From: Ignavibacteriales bacterium
GTDB taxonomy: Bacteria; Bacteroidota; Ignavibacteria; UBA10030; SZUA-254
Direction of reading: 5' to 3'
Assembly (NCBI GenBank): GCA_016214905.1
Contig: JACRMQ010000002.1
Coordinates: forward strand, 1 to 64,000
Length of the DNA stretch: 64,000 bases
Shown: positions 5,909-62,300 of the stretch, one piece after another
Layout of the letters: every line of letters begins with the position of its first letter
Position numbering within the stretch: the first letter of the stretch is position 1
Made by a program: the position numbers and the translations under genes
Notes under the pieces: model-generated
What the model was told of the DNA's origin: nothing
The model's input: the letters and a program-made list of their open reading frames with translations, nothing else
Databases searched by the model: none

Positions 5909-6955
5909 ATGATCGGAATTGTTGGTTTTGGCGCGTACCTTCCTCGGTACCGCATAAAAGCAGAAACGATCGCAAAGCAATGGGGAATGGATGCTAATGC
6001 GATTGTTCGTGGTTTGCAGTTAAATGAAAAAACTGTCCCCGGACAGGATGAAGATACGATAACTATTTCTGTCGCGGCAGCGAAGAATGCACTTTTGCGT
6101 GCGCAAATCGATCCGCAGGAAATTGGTGCATTGTACATTGGATCTGAATCGCATCCATACGCTGTGAAACCGAGCGGCACAATTGTGATCGATGCACTCG
6201 GAGTTGGTCCCCATGTTCACGTTGCGAGCTACGAGTTTGCATGTAAAGCAGGAAGTGAAGCAATGTTTGTTGCATATAGTCTTGTTAAAGCAGGCGAGAT
6301 GAAATATGCAATGGGCATCGGTGCCGATACATCTCAGGGTGCACCGGGCGATGCACTGGAATATTCCGCATCAGCAGGCGGCGCAGCGTTCATCATGGGA
6401 AGCGAGAAAGTTGTGGCTGAAATTCTTTTCACTCACTCTTACACATCCGATACTCCCGATTTCTGGCGGCGTGAAGGTGAAGACTATCCTCGTCACGGCG
6501 GAAGATTCACTGGCGACCCTGCATACTTCAAACATGTTATGGGTGCCGCAAACGCACTTCTAGAAAAATCGAAAATGAAACCTTCCGAATTCAAGTATGC
6601 TGTGTTTCATATGCCGAATGGCAAATTTCCACAGGAAGTCGGCAAGCGTCTCGGTTTTACAAAAGAGCAATTGGAAGTCGGATGGATTGTTCCGTGGATG
6701 GGTAACACTTATTCAGGTTCATCCCCAACCGGACTTGCAGCGATTCTCGATGTTGCCAAGCCGGATGATAAGATATTTATGGTCTCGTTCGGTTCAGGCG
6801 CGGGCAGTGATGGATTTATTTATCGTGCAACAAAAGAGATCACCAAAGTTCAGAATCGCGCGCCGAAGTTAAGAGATTATCTTGATAAAGATAAAATCTA
6901 TTTAGACTACGGTCAGTATGCGAAGTTCCGTAAAAAAATTAAACTTAATGAATAA
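5909..6955 (+). CDS. hydroxymethylglutaryl-CoA synthase, archaeal type
   Basis: Condenses acetyl-CoA with acetoacetyl-CoA to HMG-CoA, the second step of the mevalonate pathway. The 348 residues match the short archaeal-type family, not the ~390-450 residue bacterial/eukaryotic form. Visible catalytic residues are Glu80 in ESHPYAVKP, Cys112 in SYEFACKAGSEA and His234 in YAVFHMPNGKFP. The start ATG follows AAGGAGAACTT. A thiolase and a DUF35 gene follow immediately; in archaea these three proteins form one complex that channels the acetoacetyl intermediate. Plasmid-type HMG synthase homologues in polyketide clusters are less likely, because no acyl-carrier protein or polyketide synthase is nearby. 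Confidence 0.92.
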   Translation: MIGIVGFGAYLPRYRIKAETIAKQWGMDANAIVRGLQLNEKTVPGQDEDTITISVAAAKNALLRAQIDPQEIGALYIGSESHPYAVKPSGTIVIDALGVGPHVHVASYEFACKAGSEAMFVAYSLVKAGEMKYAMGIGADTSQGAPGDALEYSASAGGAAFIMGSEKVVAEILFTHSYTSDTPDFWRREGEDYPRHGGRFTGDPAYFKHVMGAANALLEKSKMKPSEFKYAVFHMPNGKFPQEVGKRLGFTKEQLEVGWIVPWMGNTYSGSSPTGLAAILDVAKPDDKIFMVSFGSGAGSDGFIYRATKEITKVQNRAPKLRDYLDKDKIYLDYGQYAKFRKKIKLNE

Positions 6956-6967
6956 GGAGACCCGACC

Positions 6968-8119
6968 ATGAGAGATGTAGTAGTTATTGGAGCCGGCATG
7001 ACGAAGTTCGGCGAGCTTTGGGGCAAATCAATAAAAGATATTTTTGTTGAAGCCGCACTTAAAGCGATTGAAGATGCCGGAGTTAAACAAATTGACTCGA
7101 TGTACGTAGGTGCGATGTCGTCTGGTTTATTCGTTGGGCAGGAACATTTAGGCGCGGTGATGGCAGATTATCTTGGTGTAACTCCGATTCCGGCAACACA
7201 CGTTGAATCGGCTTGCGCCTCAGGCGGCGTTTCGTTCCGACAAGCATATCTTGAAGTTGCTTCAGGTGCGAGTGATATAGTACTTGCAGGCGGTGTTGAG
7301 AAGATGACAGACGGTGCCGATGTAACAGAAGCATTGGCAACCGCCGCCGATCAAGAATATGAAGTTTATCAGGGAGTTACATTCCCCGGATTATATGCAA
7401 TGATCGCACACGCTCATATGAAAGAATTCGGCACAACACGGAAACAGCTTGCCGCAGTTGCTGTGAAGAATCATCGTAACGGTGCCAAGAATCCAAACGC
7501 GCAATTTCGTTCGGATATTACAATAGATCAAGTCCTTAACGCGACAATGGTCTCTGATCCGTTCGGGTTGCTCGATTGCTCACCAGTGAGCGATGGAGCC
7601 GCAGCCGTAATTGTCACAACGATGGAGATTGCAAAGAAACTTAAGAAGAAACCAATCAAAGTTATCGCATCTGCGCAAGCTTCCGATACGATAGCGCTTC
7701 ACAGCCGACCGAGCATTACAACTCTCGGTTCTGTTGTGAATGCCGCGAAGAAAGCATACAAGATGGCAGGATTGAAACCATCTGATATCGATCTTTGCGA
7801 AGTGCACGATTGCTTCACGATTGCAGAGATTGTTGTTTCGGAAGATTTAGGATTTTTCAAGAAAGGCGAAGGGGGAAAAGCCGCTGAGAAAGGTTTGACT
7901 GCAATCGGCGGAAAAATTCCAATCAACACAAGCGGCGGACTGAAATCTAAAGGTCATCCGGTTGGAGCAACAGGCATCGCGCAAATAATTGAACTTTACG
8001 AACAACTCAATGGCAAAGCAGGCGACCGTCAGGTTAAAGGCGCGCGTATCGGTATGGCGCAGAACATGGGCGGAAGCGGCGCAAGCTGTGTCATTCATAT
8101 ACTGGAGGGCGGAAAATGA
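6968..8119 (+). CDS. acetoacetyl-CoA thiolase (archaeal-type thiolase)
   Basis: Joins two acetyl-CoA to give acetoacetyl-CoA, the unfavourable first mevalonate step. 383 residues. The nucleophile is Cys83 in [11 protein letters not shown]. The C-terminal half carries HDCFTIAEI and the [14 protein letters not shown] loop, typical of the SCP2/archaeal thiolase branch. It starts 12 bases after the HMG-CoA synthase stop with an AAGGAGA ribosome site. Its stop overlaps the next start by four bases (ATGA), so translation is coupled. Some members of this branch act on other acyl-CoAs; the fixed neighbourhood supports the acetoacetyl-CoA role. Confidence 0.92.
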
Positions 8120-8508
8120 TTACTGCACGTTATCATCGCGAAATTCCTCAACGCTATCGGCTCGAAGCAGGCAAATGCACAAAGTGCGGATATGTTGCTT
8201 TCCCGCCGCGGCTTGTTTGCCCGAAGTGTAACACGAAAAAATTCAAACCAATCGTGTTGAAGGATGAAGGGAAAATAATTACCTACACTGTAATTCGTGT
8301 GGGACCCGATAAATTTTCAAAAGAGACTCCATACGCAATCGGAATTATCGAGTTGAACGATAAACTCCGTTTGACAGCTCAGATCGCAGGTGTGGTTGAT
8401 TTTGATAAACTGAAGATCGGACAGAAGGTGAAGCTCGTCTTCCGCAAAATTCAAGACGACGGCAAAGCCGGCATACACATGTATGGGTATAAAGCTGTAC
8501 TAGTTTAA
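8116..8508 (+). CDS. DUF35 zinc-ribbon/OB-fold protein, thiolase-HMGCS scaffold
   Basis: 130 residues. An N-terminal helix is followed by a rubredoxin-like zinc ribbon with Cys21, Cys24, Cys35 and Cys38 (KCTKCG and VCPKCN), then an OB-fold ([18 protein letters not shown] to [15 protein letters not shown]). This is the DUF35/ChsH2-type family. In methanogenic archaea the DUF35 subunit bridges thiolase and HMG-CoA synthase and holds the swinging CoA arm between their active sites. ATGA overlap with the thiolase gene implies matched stoichiometry. No terminator is obvious directly after the stop. Confidence 0.9.
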
Positions 8509-11703: not shown

Positions 11704-13065
11704 ATGAAAGATAAAATCAGAATAGCATCCGGACAAGGATTTTGGGGAGACTTGCAAAGTGCACCGATGGATCAGGTAACGAAAGGACAGATCGATTATT
11801 TAATGATGGATTTTCTTGCGGAAGTAACTATGTCCATTATGCAAAAACAGAAACGCCGCAATCCTGAACTCGGTTATGCAAAAGATTTAGTCCAGATTAT
11901 CGAACAAATACTTCCTATCTGCATAGAGAAAAATATCAAGATCATAACTAACGGTGGCGGAGCTAATCCCGAAGGTTGTCGTGATGCTATTTTCAAGTGC
12001 GCAAATAAAAAGGGATATAAGAATCTCAAAATCGCGGCAGTGCATGGCGACGATATCCTTCCGAATATCGAACTCCTTCGCAAGCAAGGTATTCCATTTA
12101 CAAATTTAGAAAATGGGGCATCATTTGATTCAATCGGACATAAAATTCTGAGTGCAAATGTTTACTTTGGTGCGAGACCGATTGTTGAAGCTTTGAAGCA
12201 AGACGCCCAGATTGTAATTACAGGTCGAACTACTGACACATCATTAACTTACGCACCAATGATTTATGAATTCGGTTGGTCGTGGGATGATTGGGATAAA
12301 TTAGCTGCCGGTGTTGTGGCGGGTCATATACTTGAATGCGGCGGACAGGCGACAGGCGGCAATTTTTCTGCCGGCTGGAAATCTGTACCCGACCTTGCAC
12401 ACATCGGTTTTCCGATTGCAGAAGCATATCCAAACGGCGAGTTCATTATTACAAAACACGAGAACACTGGCGGACTTGTTTCAGTAGATACGATCACCGA
12501 ACAGCTTATGTACGAGATTGGCGATCCACAAAATTATATCACGCCAGATTGTGTTGCCGATTTTTCATCAATAAAACTAGAACAGGTTGGAAACAATAGA
12601 GTAAAAGTTTTTGGAGTGAAGGGGAGACCCGATACCGACACATTCAAAGTCTCAATGGCATACGCCGATGGTTACACTGCCGTTAGCACGCTTACCTTCA
12701 CATGGCCCGATGCATTAGAGAAGGCGAAAAAAGCGGATGAAATTCTTCGAACGCGCCTAGCTGATTTGAAGTTACATTTTGATGAAATACGGACGGAATT
12801 TCTCGGTTTAAATTCGTGTCATGGGCATTTGGCTCCAATGCCTGATAAGATCAATGAAATAGTTTTGCGAATCGGCGTGCGTTCACACGATCATCACGCG
12901 GTTGAAAGATTCGGAAAAGAAATAGCCCCGTTAATTTTAACAGGACCTCCATCAGTTACAGGATTTGCCGGGGGCAGACCGAAACCGAGTGATGTGATTG
13001 CCTACTGGCCCTCACTTATTCCTAAAAAAGATATCAATCCTATTGTAACGGTAACGTCAATTTAG
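11704..13065 (+). CDS. AtuA-like protein (DUF1446), N-terminal component
   Basis: 453 residues. It opens KIRIASGQGFWGDLQSAPMD and contains ITNGGGANPEGCRDA, ITGRTTDTSL and GHILECGGQATGGNFSAGWK, the pattern of the acyclic terpene utilisation AtuA/DUF1446 family. AtuA is required for citronellol/geraniol degradation in Pseudomonas, but its reaction is not established and most homologues sit in other acyl-CoA contexts. The family normally has a ~100-residue ferredoxin-fold domain fused or encoded next door. Here that domain is at 14366, beyond an inverted lipoprotein gene. The start follows AAAAAAGGATTGT. No terpene genes are seen nearby. Confidence 0.85.
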   Translation: MKDKIRIASGQGFWGDLQSAPMDQVTKGQIDYLMMDFLAEVTMSIMQKQKRRNPELGYAKDLVQIIEQILPICIEKNIKIITNGGGANPEGCRDAIFKCANKKGYKNLKIAAVHGDDILPNIELLRKQGIPFTNLENGASFDSIGHKILSANVYFGARPIVEALKQDAQIVITGRTTDTSLTYAPMIYEFGWSWDDWDKLAAGVVAGHILECGGQATGGNFSAGWKSVPDLAHIGFPIAEAYPNGEFIITKHENTGGLVSVDTITEQLMYEIGDPQNYITPDCVADFSSIKLEQVGNNRVKVFGVKGRPDTDTFKVSMAYADGYTAVSTLTFTWPDALEKAKKADEILRTRLADLKLHFDEIRTEFLGLNSCHGHLAPMPDKINEIVLRIGVRSHDHHAVERFGKEIAPLILTGPPSVTGFAGGRPKPSDVIAYWPSLIPKKDINPIVTVTSI

Positions 13066-13144: not shown

Positions 13145-14113
13145 TTAACGACCTGATGCTTTCAAATTAATATCGATGTAAGTCAGGTTGTTCGAATAAT
13201 CGAATGTGGGAATCCCGCCTGTTCCTTTTGTCGGAATTATTCCACTTATACCATCGAGGAAAAAAGTATTGAGTGCAATGCTTGGATGGCCTGTGCCATT
13301 CATTCCATCCAAACTGAATGTTAATCGATATGTTCCTGCTCCTGCATTCAGATCACGAGTTTTCCAGTTGTATCCGTAAATAATTTTTCCGGGAATATTG
13401 ATTTCGGCAGAGTAATAACCTGAACCATCTGCTGCTTCCCACACACCGCCGTTAAATAACACCGTAGCTGCATCTTGACCTTCCCAGATTCCAAGTCCAG
13501 GATTCCATATTGCATTCTGAACAACTCCTTTAGGCTGAATCATCTTTTGGATTGTCAGTCTGGCACAACCGGAATAAATTGTGGACTTTGTGCTTTGATA
13601 AGTAGTTGTATTTGTTCCCCACATTTCTGAAGTTCCCTTTCCATACAGCAGCTGCATAGTGAAACCGAGCATTGCGGGCCATTCTGTTGTTCCAAGATTT
13701 TTAAACAGGACAACCTCAGTTCTTAGAACTGATCCGATCGACCAGTCTTTCGATTCAAGGTTGTCACCCCAATCGACTGAATCAACCACTACCTGCGGTC
13801 CGGTTGCGGCACTCACTAATAAATTCTCTGCCTGCCAAACATTGAATTCATCCTGTTGGAGATACCAGTTAACTCCGTCGACGGTCAAGTATTTTCCTGT
13901 AAAATTAGGAACGCCAAAAGTTCCTCTCAGAACTTTTGTTGCTCCGTCGGACCAAATGACCGGGAAGGAGAGATTATTTCCGAATACTATAGTCTCACCA
14001 CCGCCACCTTTCTGTAGCGGGCTGAGTTCTGTGTTCGGTGCAATTTGATCATACGAACATTGTGTAAACAATGCTAACCAACAAATGATCAAAATTAAGA
14101 TAAGTTTATTCAT
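13145..14113 (-). CDS. lipoprotein of unknown function
   Basis: 322 residues. The signal peptide MNKLILILIICWLALFTQC ends in a lipobox, with Cys19 as the lipidated residue. The mature part is rich in Gly, Thr, Trp and aromatic residues (VDGVNWYLQQDEFNVWQ, YSAEINIPGKIIYGYNWK), suggesting a beta-sandwich. I recognise no named domain. It lies on the opposite strand between the two AtuA-type genes, with its own terminator and about 250 AT-rich bases upstream. It looks like an insertion that split an older gene pair. Confidence 0.8.
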   Translation of the reverse strand: MNKLILILIICWLALFTQCSYDQIAPNTELSPLQKGGGGETIVFGNNLSFPVIWSDGATKVLRGTFGVPNFTGKYLTVDGVNWYLQQDEFNVWQAENLLVSAATGPQVVVDSVDWGDNLESKDWSIGSVLRTEVVLFKNLGTTEWPAMLGFTMQLLYGKGTSEMWGTNTTTYQSTKSTIYSGCARLTIQKMIQPKGVVQNAIWNPGLGIWEGQDAATVLFNGGVWEAADGSGYYSAEINIPGKIIYGYNWKTRDLNAGAGTYRLTFSLDGMNGTGHPSIALNTFFLDGISGIIPTKGTGGIPTFDYSNNLTYIDINLKASGR

Positions 14114-14365: not shown

Positions 14366-14692
14366 ATGAAAGTTAAATTAGAGAATATTTGTCATACCCG
14401 TTCGGGTGATAAAGGTGATACTGCAAATATAGGTTTGATCGCCCGTAAACCTGAATACTATCGGATCATAAAAAAATATGTTACTGCTGATATCGTAAAA
14501 AAATATTTCGAAGGAATCTGCCTTGGTAAAGTTGTTCGTTATGAAATGCCAAATCTTAACGCCTTAAATTTTCTTCTTTATAATTCACTTGGCGGAGGGG
14601 GCACAGTTTCTTTGATGAACGATGCTCAAGGAAAAACACTTGGCAGTGCATTGTTGAGAATGGAAATTGAAGTTGATGAAGATTTTCGGTAA
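14366..14692 (+). CDS. AtuA-like ferredoxin-fold partner protein
   Basis: 108 residues. LENICHTRSGDKGDTANIGL near the N terminus and LNALNFLLYNSLGGGGTVSL in the second half are the hallmark of the small C-terminal domain of AtuA proteins. Elsewhere it is fused to DUF1446 or encoded directly after it. It presumably associates with the product of the gene at 11704. Here it is separated by 1.3 kb and has its own AT-rich upstream region. About 290 bases without recognisable features follow. Confidence 0.83.
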   Translation: MKVKLENICHTRSGDKGDTANIGLIARKPEYYRIIKKYVTADIVKKYFEGICLGKVVRYEMPNLNALNFLLYNSLGGGGTVSLMNDAQGKTLGSALLRMEIEVDEDFR

Positions 14693-14982: not shown

Positions 14983-16503
14983 ATGCTCTTACACCAACAA
15001 TTTGTACGAATAGCAAAGCAACACGAGAAGAAACTCGCGATAGTAGATAGAACTCTTCGACGTCGGGTAACTTACAAAAAGGCACTGATAGGCGCCCTTA
15101 TTCTTGCAAAGAAATTTCAAAATTATCCCCCGGGATTTTTAGGCATCATGCTGCCGAATTCTGCCGGTTCTGTTTTGTCAATCTTGGCAACTTTGATGAG
15201 CGGTCGTGTACCTGTCATGATAAATTATTCAACGGGTGCAGCCGCTAATTGTGAGTTCGCGCAGAAGAAATGCGATTTCAAAACTATCATTACGTCAAGA
15301 GCACTCTGCGAGAAAATCAATTGTAAAAAGATAAATGGCATGATCTTTCTTGAAGATATCATGGAATCAATTTCTTTCTTCGATAAGATCAAAGCGGCTA
15401 TCACTGCAGGTCAATCGGCAGACCAAATATTAAAAAAGATACATGCAGGGAACGAGGATGATACATTACTTATTTTGTTCACCAGCGGTAGTGAGAAAGA
15501 TCCTAAAGGTGTTCAATTAACTCACAGAAATATTACATCCAATTACGAAAGTCTAATCAAGGCATATTCGTTTTCGTCGGAAGATATATTTTTAGCAAAT
15601 TTGCCATACTTCCATGTTTTTGGGCAAACGGCAAATCTTTGGGTACCAATAGCAGTTGGGATGACGATAGTTACTTATGCAAATCCTCTTGACTTTAAAG
15701 TTATATGTGATATTGTTCGAGAAGAAAACGTTACACTTATGGCAGGAACGCCAATGTTTTTCTGGGGCTATCTCAGAAATTCCAAAACCGGCGATTTCAA
15801 ATCGGTAAGAATTCTACTATCAGGAGCCGATAAATGTCCGGATGCTCTCCGTAAAGGTTTTCTTGAGAAGCATGACAAAGTTTTACTGGAAGCATACGGC
15901 GCCACCGAAACAAGTCCTGCAATAACAGTTAACACGCTGGAAAATAATCGGCCGGGAAGTGTTGGACGGCCAATTGACGGAGTTCTGGTGCGAGTGGAAA
16001 ATTATGAAACAGGTGAGGAATGTGGTGTGGGAGAAATCGGGAAAATTTTAGTTAAAGGTGATAATGTAATGAAGGGATACTTTGATGATTTTGAACAGAC
16101 TTCGTTGAGCATTCGCCATGGATGGTATGACACTGGAGATATGGGGTATCTGGACGCAGAAGGTTATCTATGGCACGTTGGCAGATTGAAACGTTTTTTG
16201 AAAGTCGGTGGCGAAATGGTGTCGTTAATAAAAGTGGAAGATGTTTTGGAAAAACTTCTATCGGCGGATATTGAATGTTGTGTGGTCGAAGTCCCCGATG
16301 CGATACGCGGAGCCAGAATTGTTGCTGCGGTGACGAAGCAAATCGATGATAAACTGATCCTGAAGAAAATGTCTGAGCAGTTACCAAAAATATCGTTACC
16401 GAGCAAATTCGTGGTTATACCCGAAATGCCGAAAACAGGGAGTGGAAAAATTGATTTTAGAGCAATCACCGAACGAGTAAGAGATGTAATTCAGAATATT
16501 TAG
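14983..16503 (+). CDS. AMP-binding acyl-CoA/acyl-ACP synthetase-like enzyme
   Basis: 506 residues of the ANL adenylating superfamily. Visible core motifs: phosphate loop LFTSGSEKDPKGVQLTHRN, A5 YGATETSPAI, A7 YDTGDMGYLDAEGYLWHVGR, hinge GRLKRFLKVGGEMVS, and the catalytic A10 lysine in PKTGSGKIDFRAI. It should activate a carboxylic acid as acyl-AMP and pass it to CoA or ACP. The N-terminal part (GIMLPNSAGSVLSILATLMSGRVPVMINYS) resembles the AMP-binding domain of Aas-type acylglycerophosphoethanolamine acyltransferase/synthetases, without the acyltransferase domain. Ribosome site CTGGAGAAGAGC. The exact substrate is unknown. Confidence 0.88.
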   Translation: MLLHQQFVRIAKQHEKKLAIVDRTLRRRVTYKKALIGALILAKKFQNYPPGFLGIMLPNSAGSVLSILATLMSGRVPVMINYSTGAAANCEFAQKKCDFKTIITSRALCEKINCKKINGMIFLEDIMESISFFDKIKAAITAGQSADQILKKIHAGNEDDTLLILFTSGSEKDPKGVQLTHRNITSNYESLIKAYSFSSEDIFLANLPYFHVFGQTANLWVPIAVGMTIVTYANPLDFKVICDIVREENVTLMAGTPMFFWGYLRNSKTGDFKSVRILLSGADKCPDALRKGFLEKHDKVLLEAYGATETSPAITVNTLENNRPGSVGRPIDGVLVRVENYETGEECGVGEIGKILVKGDNVMKGYFDDFEQTSLSIRHGWYDTGDMGYLDAEGYLWHVGRLKRFLKVGGEMVSLIKVEDVLEKLLSADIECCVVEVPDAIRGARIVAAVTKQIDDKLILKKMSEQLPKISLPSKFVVIPEMPKTGSGKIDFRAITERVRDVIQNI

Positions 16504-59365: not shown

Positions 59366-62300
59366 ATGACAAAGAACCATGCAACACTCGAAGAGATGTG
59401 GACGATAGTTTCGCTCATCGCCCTATTCTTTTTTACCGGTACCATTTTTGCACAACTACCAGATCTGACGATTTCTAACGTGATAGTTCCGGTATCTGCT
59501 TCGTCTGGTGAATACATCACCATCAAGTGGACTACCTCGAACATAGGAAGTGGCTCCACAGGCGGTGCCTTTTTGTTCGACGGGATATACATTTCCACCG
59601 ACCAAAATTTTGACAAATCAACAGATACCTATTTGAGTATATACTTCCATTCAGTAGCGATTCCCGCCGGCTCGAGCGAAGAAGATTCGACGATCGTGAT
59701 GGTACCCGACAGTTTAAATGGAAATTTTTATATTTTTGTAAATGCAGACGACTTTTCAGGTTTGAGTGAATCGAATGAGACGAATAATTACGCTCATTCG
59801 TCGGTGATCAATTTTAGTACGAACGCTCCGGATCTTAATGTTCTAAGCGTTACTGCCCCGGCAACCGGATCTTCACAGCAATATATTCAGGTCAGCTATT
59901 CAGTTTCCAACATTGGAACAAAAGATATTACCAACCAGTCGTGGTACGATTATATTATACTTTCGTCAGATACGGTGTATGATAATGGAGATGATGTTTT
60001 CCTCGGTACGGTATCGATGGATACCTCATTAACAATCGGAGATTCGTATACCAGAACAAGTTCCGTTTATTTGCCTACGGGCTTGAGTGGTATATACTAT
60101 ATTTTGGTGCGTACGAATGCGTTTGATTTCCTTAACGAAACGAGCCCTGACAACAATCTTGGCAGATCGGCTCCAATCAGTATCGATTTCAAACGACCCG
60201 ATCTTATCGTTTCACAAATTAACAGACCAGACACAGTAAACGCTGGTGACAAACTCAGATTTTCATATCAAATTACCAATACCGGGGATACAAGCACCAA
60301 CTCTCAGCAATGGTATGATGAGATTTTCATATCATCTGATTCCCTTGCGGGAAATGACACACTTTTGACGCTCTACTTACGTTCGACGAATCTGGAACCG
60401 GGTCAGAGTTTAATGGTAACTGACAGTGTCTCGATGCCGTTTGGATTACCGAAAGGAAATTACCATATCGTTGTCGGATGTGATATGCTGAATCAGATTA
60501 ACGAGTCGAGTGAAACAAATAACACGCGGATCTCGAACCCATTTCTTTATGGCTTCAACGGTCCTGATCTCATGGTAACTAAAGTTCAAACACCTGCGAA
60601 CGCTTTTTCCGGGCAGCAGATAGAAATTAATTGGATTGTAAAAAATGACGGTACACTTGCTACCAATGTACCGCAATGGTATGATCGGGTATATCTATCA
60701 CCGAATCCCGTTTTTGATCCAATGGGTGTTACAACATTGGGATATTTTGATAATATGAGTTATCTGGGACCGGGTGAAAGCTATTCTAACACACAGCATG
60801 TAACACTTCCAAATGGAATTAACGGAAGTTATTATATCTTTGTGCAATCGGATGCATTCGCGCAGGTAACAGAAGTGGATGAATCAAATAATTTCATGAA
60901 AAATGATACCGCGATGCAAGTGAATCTTTCCGCCGCATCTGATCTGATTGTAAGCGCGTTCTCGAAACCAAGTACTGCATTCTCGGGAGATACAATCGAT
61001 ATTTCCTACACCATAAAAAATGTTGGAAACGGATCGACAATCAGCGCACAATGGTATGATGTTCTTTATTTCACGCAGGATACCGTGCTCGATGTACGAA
61101 CGGCTAAATGGCTCTCATGGAATCAGCACGACGGTGTTCTTGCGCCGGAAAGTTCGTACACCAGAATTGACCGCGTTGTTCTTCCGAATGCGATCTCGGG
61201 GAAGTATTTCTTTTATCTCAGTACAGACAATTTTAACAACGTTTATGAGTTTACAGCCGAAAGCAACAACACGAGACGCGAATCCATTGATGTGGTGCTT
61301 ACTCCGCCACCCGATCTTGTAGTCACTAATGTCTCCGGACCACTAACCGGAAATTCCGGAAAACGAATTTTAGTTTCTTGGAGTGTACAAAATCAAGGTT
61401 CTAATCCTCCGTTCGAATCGGGATGGCAGGATAGATTGTATATCTCACCATCATCAACGTTCAATCCTGAATCGGCATACGTTCTCGGAACGTTCACTCA
61501 CTATGGAATCCTCGAACCTGATTCAACCTACACAAAATCAGACAGCGTTCTCATCCCGGATGGATTATCCGGGCAGTTGTACATCTACGCAAATACTGAC
61601 TGGAAAAATGATGTTTTCGAGTATCTTTTTGAAAAGAATAACTTTAGACGTTCTTCCGCCACCATTCAGGTAGAACTCAGTCCTTGGCCCGATCTCGATA
61701 TCACATTGATGACAAATCCCTCAACTGTCTCTGCAGGTCAACAGGTAACTATCAACTGGAATGTTACAAACTCGGGGGTTGGTGCTGCAACATCTCCGTT
61801 ATGGAAAGACAAAGTGTACATTTCTTCTTCTGCCGTTTGGGACTCTGCTTCCTCGACGTTATTAAAAGATGTTCCGCGTACCTCGCCGCTATCACCTTCG
61901 GGTAGTTATTCACAAACCGCGTCTGTAACTTTGCCCGTAACGATTTCAGGAACATACTATTTCTATATCATCACCGATGCGGAAAACAATGTTTATGAAC
62001 ATACGGATGAAGGAAATAATATCGAGAGAAGTTCAGCGGTGTCTGTGCAACCATATCCACCTATCGATCTTCAGGTTGGAAATATTGCCATCCCATCGTC
62101 GGGATTCTCCGGGCTTCCGGTTTCGATGCAGTACACTATACAAAACATCGGCACGGGAAAAACACTTGCACCTAAATGGGACGACGCAGTATATCTCTCA
62201 GAGGATTCAATCCTTAACGTGGGTGTGGACAGTATTCTTACAGTTGTTCGTAGAATGGGTGCGCTTGATATTGGAGAAAGTTATTCGCGGGATATAAGCG

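Follow-up and report, generated by a model that had tools for sequence, protein, structure and literature searches.

What use does a bacterium make of three genes whose products resemble the enzymes of archaeal mevalonate synthesis? The question is raised by positions 5909-8508 of contig JACRMQ010000002.1 from an Ignavibacteriales bacterium (assembly GCA_016214905.1), of which we analysed a stretch of 64,000 nucleotides, positions 1 to 64,000, termed here the window. The three genes, referred to as the trio, encode a 3-hydroxy-3-methylglutaryl-CoA (HMG-CoA) synthase, a thiolase and a DUF35 protein.

5909..6955, + strand: archaeal-type (short-form) HMG-CoA synthase (HMGS); TIGR00748 and NF003274; best Protein Data Bank (PDB) match 6esq_I; Glu80/Cys112/His234
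6968..8119, + strand: acetoacetyl-CoA thiolase of the archaeal/SCP2 type, with Cys83; Thiolase_N/Thiolase_C_1; best PDB match 6esq_A
8116..8508, + strand: DUF35 protein (zinc ribbon plus OB fold), proposed scaffold; zf-ChsH2 and OB_ChsH2_C; best PDB match 6esq_E

The answer that we favour, at about an even chance of being correct, is that these proteins form a thiolase/HMGS/DUF35 complex which acts at the HMG-CoA node of leucine/isovalerate-type (3-methylcrotonyl-CoA) catabolism, where it would cleave HMG-CoA, and which does not serve isoprenoid synthesis.

The trio genes are real and correctly read. They are packed on the + strand as the preliminary description had placed them, with a gap of 12 bases between the HMGS and thiolase genes and an ATGA overlap between those for thiolase and DUF35. 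HMGS passes both archaeal equivalog models, with 503.7 bits against TIGR00748 (cut-off 353.35) and 532.1 against NF003274 (cut-off 244), and the thiolase exceeds the cut-off of NF004720 (557.3, cut-off 420) and falls slightly below that of NF053570 (AcCoTHIOL_METTL; 574.3, cut-off 600). PDB entry 6ESQ is the top match of all three proteins, with E-values of 5.7e-126 for HMGS, 7.4e-118 for the thiolase and 7.3e-28 for DUF35; together with 6ET9 it represents the Methanothermococcus complex. Pfam domains, NCBIfam models and these structural matches thus agree with the earlier assignment of an archaeal-type trio, where 'archaeal' denotes a type of sequence and makes no statement on origin.

The catalytic residues described earlier as intact are conserved throughout: Glu80, Cys112 and His234 of HMGS are unchanged in 87 of 87 homologues, and Cys83 of the thiolase is kept in 83 of 83. 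The four-cysteine zinc ribbon attributed to the DUF35 protein lies within its zf-ChsH2 and OB_ChsH2_C domains. Each of the four positions is Cys in 62-65 of 77 homologues and another residue in 12-15, so the zinc is not retained by all; the DUF35 protein at L037:3893-4285 has none of the four cysteines, and the trio is retained at that locus. Comparison with the nearest relative, locus L041, gave ratios of nonsynonymous to synonymous divergence (dN/dS) of 0.016/0.674 for HMGS, 0.005/0.489 for the thiolase and 0.007/0.377 for DUF35 (range 0.010-0.024), which indicates that all three genes are under purifying selection.

An isoprenoid role, one of two proposed in the preliminary description, does not agree with the gene content of these organisms. 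No HMG-CoA reductase (PF00368) was found in any of 21 genomes, comprising the window's own and 20 relatives, in a search whose control was positive in 5 of 14 known genomes. All 21 carry the reductoisomerase of the 1-deoxy-D-xylulose 5-phosphate (DXP) pathway, DXR. The window's genome measures 3.3 Mb and is 99.64% complete. On this evidence we rejected an isoprenoid function for the trio, with the proviso that there is no HMG-CoA reductase of an unrelated kind.

A different assignment comes from the neighbours of the trio in other bacteria. A scan of genome contigs yielded at least 585 relatives, of which the 80 closest were kept, so that the set leans to the kin of the window; the titles of these best 80 are all bacterial and carry 19 phylum labels. 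Adding seven loci of the window's class and the window itself gave 88 loci, whose neighbouring genes were clustered. The recurrent neighbours are a carboxyltransferase resembling the β subunit of 3-methylcrotonyl-CoA carboxylase (MCCβ; 29 loci), a crotonase-type hydratase (ECH; 27), a biotin carboxylase (BC; 23), a biotin carboxyl carrier protein (BCCP; 21) and a gene of the acyl-CoA dehydrogenase type (10). By tblastn, MCCβ at 50% identity or more lies within 8 kb in 28 of the 80 loci; it is downstream on the same strand in 24 of these, at most 400 bases from the trio in 21, and on the opposite strand in the other 4. Among the 51 loci with at least 5 kb of downstream sequence, 25 have MCCβ. 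The order HMGS-thiolase-DUF35-MCCβ-ECH-BC-BCCP recurs, for example in L066, L079, L082, L084, L089 and L097.

In the PDB the linked carboxyltransferase scores 743 bits against human MCCβ and 724 against Pseudomonas MCCβ, well above the 460 of geranyl-CoA carboxylase and the values of most propionyl-CoA carboxylases, which are at most 292. Equally high are 9tps, named a propionyl-CoA carboxylase (737), and 4q0g, the acetyl-/propionyl-CoA carboxylase AccD1 (729). NCBIfam gives neither enzyme an exact name: the best model for the carboxyltransferase is mmdA, far below its cut-off, and those for the hydratase are PRK07468 and gamma-carboxygeranoyl-CoA hydratase, both below cut-off, and PDB matches do not settle the hydratase's substrate. 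Some trio loci also carry a methylmalonyl-CoA epimerase (TIGR03081, above cut-off) and a CoA-transferase-like gene. A role at the HMG-CoA node of leucine-type breakdown is thus well supported in the relatives and likely in the window's genome. The 'specialised acyl-CoA route' that had been offered as the alternative to isoprenoids can be given this name, namely the HMG-CoA step of leucine/isovalerate-type catabolism. The preliminary description had counted a leucine-degradation context in relatives as evidence against its interpretation, and such a context is what was found; of that interpretation the trio type and the specialised acyl-CoA route stand, and the isoprenoid role falls.

Of the 29 linked genomes, defined as those whose loci hold the carboxyltransferase cluster, 25 lack HMG-CoA lyase (NF004283), the best remaining scores being at most 64 bits, and 27 lack AtuA, the exceptions being L087 and L093; 23 have neither protein. 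Under the criterion of 50% identity L085 and L087 leave the set and L105 enters it, and 22 of the remaining 27 (L105 being outside this count) are without both. The linked loci share MCC and hydratase genes, and the same metabolic node, with the Liu pathway of leucine and isovalerate breakdown, and differ from it in that the lyase is missing from 25 of the 29 genomes and the trio stands beside MCC instead. The available text of PMC4097962 assigns the lyase step to LiuE, and that of PMC4847356 assigns it to AtuA. That the complex replaces or backs up a lyase is the best reading of this pattern.

In the mechanism that we propose, HMG-CoA would be made by MCC and methylglutaconyl-CoA hydratase. 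HMGS would then run in reverse, converting HMG-CoA and CoA to acetyl-CoA and acetoacetyl-CoA, an uphill step that would be drawn forward as the neighbouring thiolase site at once splits acetoacetyl-CoA by thiolysis. The DUF35 protein would tie both enzymes together and the intermediate would be channelled, as it is in the archaeal complex, where DUF35 joins the enzymes; that the window's complex still keeps this channelling is plausible from the conservation of the proteins. The net reaction would be HMG-CoA + 2 CoA -> 3 acetyl-CoA + H2O, and acetoacetate would not have to be activated, as it must be in the lyase route. In the forward direction the HMGS reaction is exergonic and thiolase condensation endergonic. 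These roles swap in reverse, and therefore a channelled complex can in principle run near equilibrium. The archaeal complex (6ESQ, 6ET9) resembles the trio in its three near-full-length homologues, its catalytic residues and the placement of three genes in one run; it differs in that the window's genome has DXR and no HMG-CoA reductase was found there, in the MCC/hydratase or AtuA partners, and in the opposite direction proposed here. Thiolase-DUF35 pairs such as BbsAB and Ltp2/ChsH2, which have catabolic roles, likewise combine a thiolase with a DUF35 partner, and are unlike the trio in having no HMGS subunit and other substrates.

The AtuA family is the other participant that we propose at this node. 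Two genes of the window belong to it, and the upstream gene aspS serves as a marker of synteny.

11704..13065, + strand: AtuA, proposed HMG-CoA-cleaving lyase subunit; PF07287, 527.1 bits, above cut-off; fold match 9evf_A
14366..14692, + strand: AtuA ferredoxin-like domain as a separate small protein; PF23544, 108.8 bits; fused to AtuA in G184 and L211
3487..5250, + strand: aspS, synteny marker; named by sequence inspection, no family search

Across 296 genomes sampled from the phylum of the window, presumably the Bacteroidota of GTDB, AtuA or HMG-CoA lyase is present in all 210 that have an MCC-like carboxyltransferase (AtuA only in 110, lyase only in 89, both in 11), and neither is present in 82 of the 86 that do not. 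The MCC-like threshold behind these counts, E < 1e-88, was picked after inspecting the carboxylase matches; at E < 1e-130 all 189 positives have AtuA or lyase, and the carboxylase-negatives with one of them number 25 instead of 4. The MCC-like set mixes carboxylase types of differing identity, and the substrate is known for only some of them. A lyase was scored as present from 150 bits upwards rather than at the curated cut-off of 246, which 32 of the 296 genomes pass; the scores listed show a gap between 157 and 85 bits. Nor are the counts independent, as states are mostly uniform within families; inside families, AtuA and the carboxyltransferase are absent together in G078, G120, G240, G156, G212 and G006. 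In G184 the order MCCβ-ECH-BC-BCCP is followed by a fused AtuA and a gene of the acyl-CoA dehydrogenase type (named by inspection), so that AtuA occupies the place taken elsewhere by the trio; this genome has no lyase above 150 bits and no HMGS above cut-off.

The predicted model of the window's AtuA, built from an alignment of six sequences of which two are partial, is of middling quality (pLDDT 71.6, pTM 0.76). A Foldseek search gave one match at E <=0.001, chain 9evf_A of a citramalate lyase complex (E 7.1e-20), with a VIA Z of 29.1 over 316 residues at 17% identity and a next-best Z of 6.8. The PDB names this chain both 'Acyclic terpene utilization AtuA family protein' and citramalate lyase subunit A. 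Searches of the PDB by sequence alone (phmmer) gave nothing useful, and the AtuA profile reached 9erq only at E 0.27, behind the unrelated 3lkv (0.0098), so the link to citramalate lyase rests on the fold; for the ferredoxin-like protein the PDB gave nothing up to E 10. Taken with the distribution complementary to that of HMG-CoA lyase, the fold suggests that AtuA and AtuA-ferredoxin constitute an alternative HMG-CoA lyase. Citramalate lyase subunit A (9ERQ, 9EVF) would thus share the fold of the window's AtuA and differ from it in sequence and in substrate, proposed here to be HMG-CoA and not citramalate.

HMGS above the TIGR00748 cut-off occurs in 10 of the 296 genomes, all in the window's class. 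With 210 genomes positive for the MCC-like gene, the presence of MCC does not predict HMGS in this phylum. Strict co-occurrence of HMGS with AtuA was likewise rejected, AtuA being found in 9 of 10 genomes with HMGS and in 9 of 11 without. Among the ten HMGS-positive genomes, AtuA lies about 5 kb or less from the trio in five (the window, L032, L034, L035 and L038), on the trio's contig about 12 kb off in G148, and on another contig in three whose trio contigs span 3.5-7.3 kb; it is absent from G160. Of 22 further HMGS genomes, 9 carry AtuA. The trio stands between aspS and atuA in L034, L035 and L038, and in G247, of the same genus as G055, atuA follows aspS directly with no trio, from which it appears that AtuA persists where the trio is gained or lost. 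In the window a lipoprotein-like gene (by inspection; 13145-14113, - strand) separates AtuA from its ferredoxin-like partner; the two genes are adjacent in L032 and L038. In L212, L214 and L218, labelled Gemmatimonadota, AtuA and a carboxyltransferase of 41% identity adjoin methylmalonyl-CoA mutase-like genes (by inspection), possibly as a combined propionyl/branched-chain module.

Several observations weigh against cleavage of HMG-CoA by the trio, and the first of them concern the window's own genome. Besides the trio it carries AtuA, which would be a second HMG-CoA-cleaving enzyme, and an HMG-CoA-lyase homologue of 294 bits, so that HMG-CoA lyase cannot be called simply absent. With this coexistence the node has up to three candidate enzymes in the window's genome, the trio among them, and redundancy or ketogenesis is possible there. 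The homologue is clustered with a family III CoA-transferase, two aconitase-like subunits and an isocitrate/isopropylmalate-type dehydrogenase (L169:5338-11856; contig 5, about 115.3-121.9 kb), company that makes its substrate unsure and possibly points to a hydroxy-dicarboxylate route. Similar clusters, some partial, were seen by inspection in L170, L171, L172, L173 and L203. The genome's MCC-like gene, which shares 47% identity with the linked type and adjoins an acyl-CoA dehydrogenase gene, is found on contig 7, apart from the trio on contig 2. The two hydratase matches reach 34% and 37% identity.

The relatives supply further points, on both sides. A quick LG+G4 tree of 90 HMGS rows, with one archaeal sequence and PhlA as outgroup, places the window's HMGS in a clade of 16 Ignavibacteria-type rows (SH-aLRT 98), in keeping with the earlier view of an FCB-like bacterium, and no locus of this clade has a linked MCC gene. 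In favour of the proposal, the MCC-linkage label changes 16 times on the tree, at least 9 times on starred branches, an upper view because loci ended by contig ends count as unlinked. Close MCCβ genes (63-74% identity) are present in 9 of the 22 further HMGS genomes, the 41-49% type in 10 and neither in 3; G332, G334 and G335 have no MCC-type gene above 39% identity. HMG-CoA lyase is above cut-off in 3 of the 29 linked genomes (L052, L053 and L055) and split over two contigs in L079. The completeness of the linked genomes is not told, which qualifies their lyase and AtuA absences, and an unrecognised lyase may exist among them.

Chemistry adds its own objections. The HMGS reaction is usually considered irreversible. 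Run in reverse, the enzyme would have to make its thioester out of HMG-CoA's free carboxylate, and this is the weak point of the scheme. The case for cleavage comes from gene context. No statement of a reversed HMGS or of a link between the trio and MCC was found in literature titles and abstract openings. The context nevertheless favours the catabolic direction, given the ATP-using carboxylase and, in some loci, the dehydrogenase-type and amino-acid-breakdown genes. Cleavage thus remains the best single explanation, with a chance of about one in two.

The strongest competitor, itself unlikely, is ketogenesis in the manner of the Lynen cycle, in which thiolase and HMGS would make HMG-CoA and AtuA would split it to acetoacetate and acetyl-CoA. 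It keeps HMGS in its normal direction, agrees with the presence of AtuA alongside the trio in the window's genome, and is encouraged by the complementarity of AtuA to HMG-CoA lyase, by its citramalate lyase-like fold and by its position near the trio, found not only in the window, L032, L034, L035 and L038 but also in L044, L046 and L049 (Ignavibacteriota), L056 (Calditrichia) and L120 (Chlorobiota); in L073 the distance is about 8 kb. It leaves unexplained why MCC is linked to the trio in genomes that have neither AtuA nor lyase. AtuA is also widespread in the window's class without HMGS, and no acetoacetate-using enzyme occurs among the ten window proteins searched, the relatives not having been searched for one.

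Rather less probable is a biosynthetic role, in which HMG-CoA made by the trio would be dehydrated and decarboxylated to 3-methylcrotonyl-CoA and then converted to isovaleryl-CoA for iso-branched lipids. Myxobacteria have an alternative isovaleryl-CoA route of this kind, the intermediates are identical to those of breakdown, and HMGS would again work in its normal direction. The caprazamycin gene cluster offers a precedent, as the available part of PMC9636800 proposes a use of HMGS there that runs towards 3-methylglutaconyl-CoA. The partner MCC, however, is an ATP-using carboxylase and is joined by acyl-CoA dehydrogenase-type genes in 10 of the 88 loci, and the methylmalonyl-CoA epimerase and CoA-transferase-like genes of some loci speak for amino-acid breakdown.

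Very improbable is an acyltransferase complex for a secondary metabolite, like the 2,4-diacetylphloroglucinol acyltransferase PhlACB (5M3K, 5MG5). Its three subunits are homologous to the trio, PhlA being the next PDB homologue of HMGS, PhlB that of DUF35 and PhlC a more distant thiolase match. In PhlA, however, Glu80, Cys112 and His234, which are invariant here, are replaced by Cys, Gly and Gln, and on these grounds a PhlACB-like role was rejected; moreover, no phloroglucinol-synthase-like family was found among the ten window proteins searched. Least credible of all is a first step of archaeal-type mevalonate synthesis, with which the enzyme types agree and in whose terms the available text of PMC7852524 describes Cloacimonetes metagenome-assembled genomes that have thiolase, HMGS and a complete methylerythritol phosphate (MEP) pathway, because in this nearly complete genome and its relatives the reductase count is 0/21 and that of DXR 21/21.

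The remaining features of the window touch the trio less closely. One gene downstream of AtuA may or may not belong to the same unit.

14983..16503, + strand: AMP-binding acyl-CoA/acyl-ACP synthetase; PF00501, 221 bits; unit membership uncertain

This synthetase is not among the recurrent neighbour clusters of the trio. The interval 59617-61019 holds no open reading frame of 80 or more amino acids in the non-overlapping list, and no part of the window matches an Rfam family at gathering score.

Placed in a wider setting, and with a chance somewhat short of even, many bacterial phyla would have reversed the archaeal-type complex, so that it cleaves HMG-CoA with channelling and gives three acetyl-CoA, and leucine breakdown would have three interchangeable last steps, namely HMG-CoA lyase, the AtuA/AtuA-ferredoxin lyase and this complex. 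If so, mevalonate-type annotations of HMGS in DXP-pathway bacteria mislead, since the enzymes would serve amino-acid breakdown. A synthase supposed to work in one direction would act as a substitute for a lyase, enabled by channelling and sparing the activation of acetoacetate, and the poorly understood AtuA family would gain a sharp and testable function.

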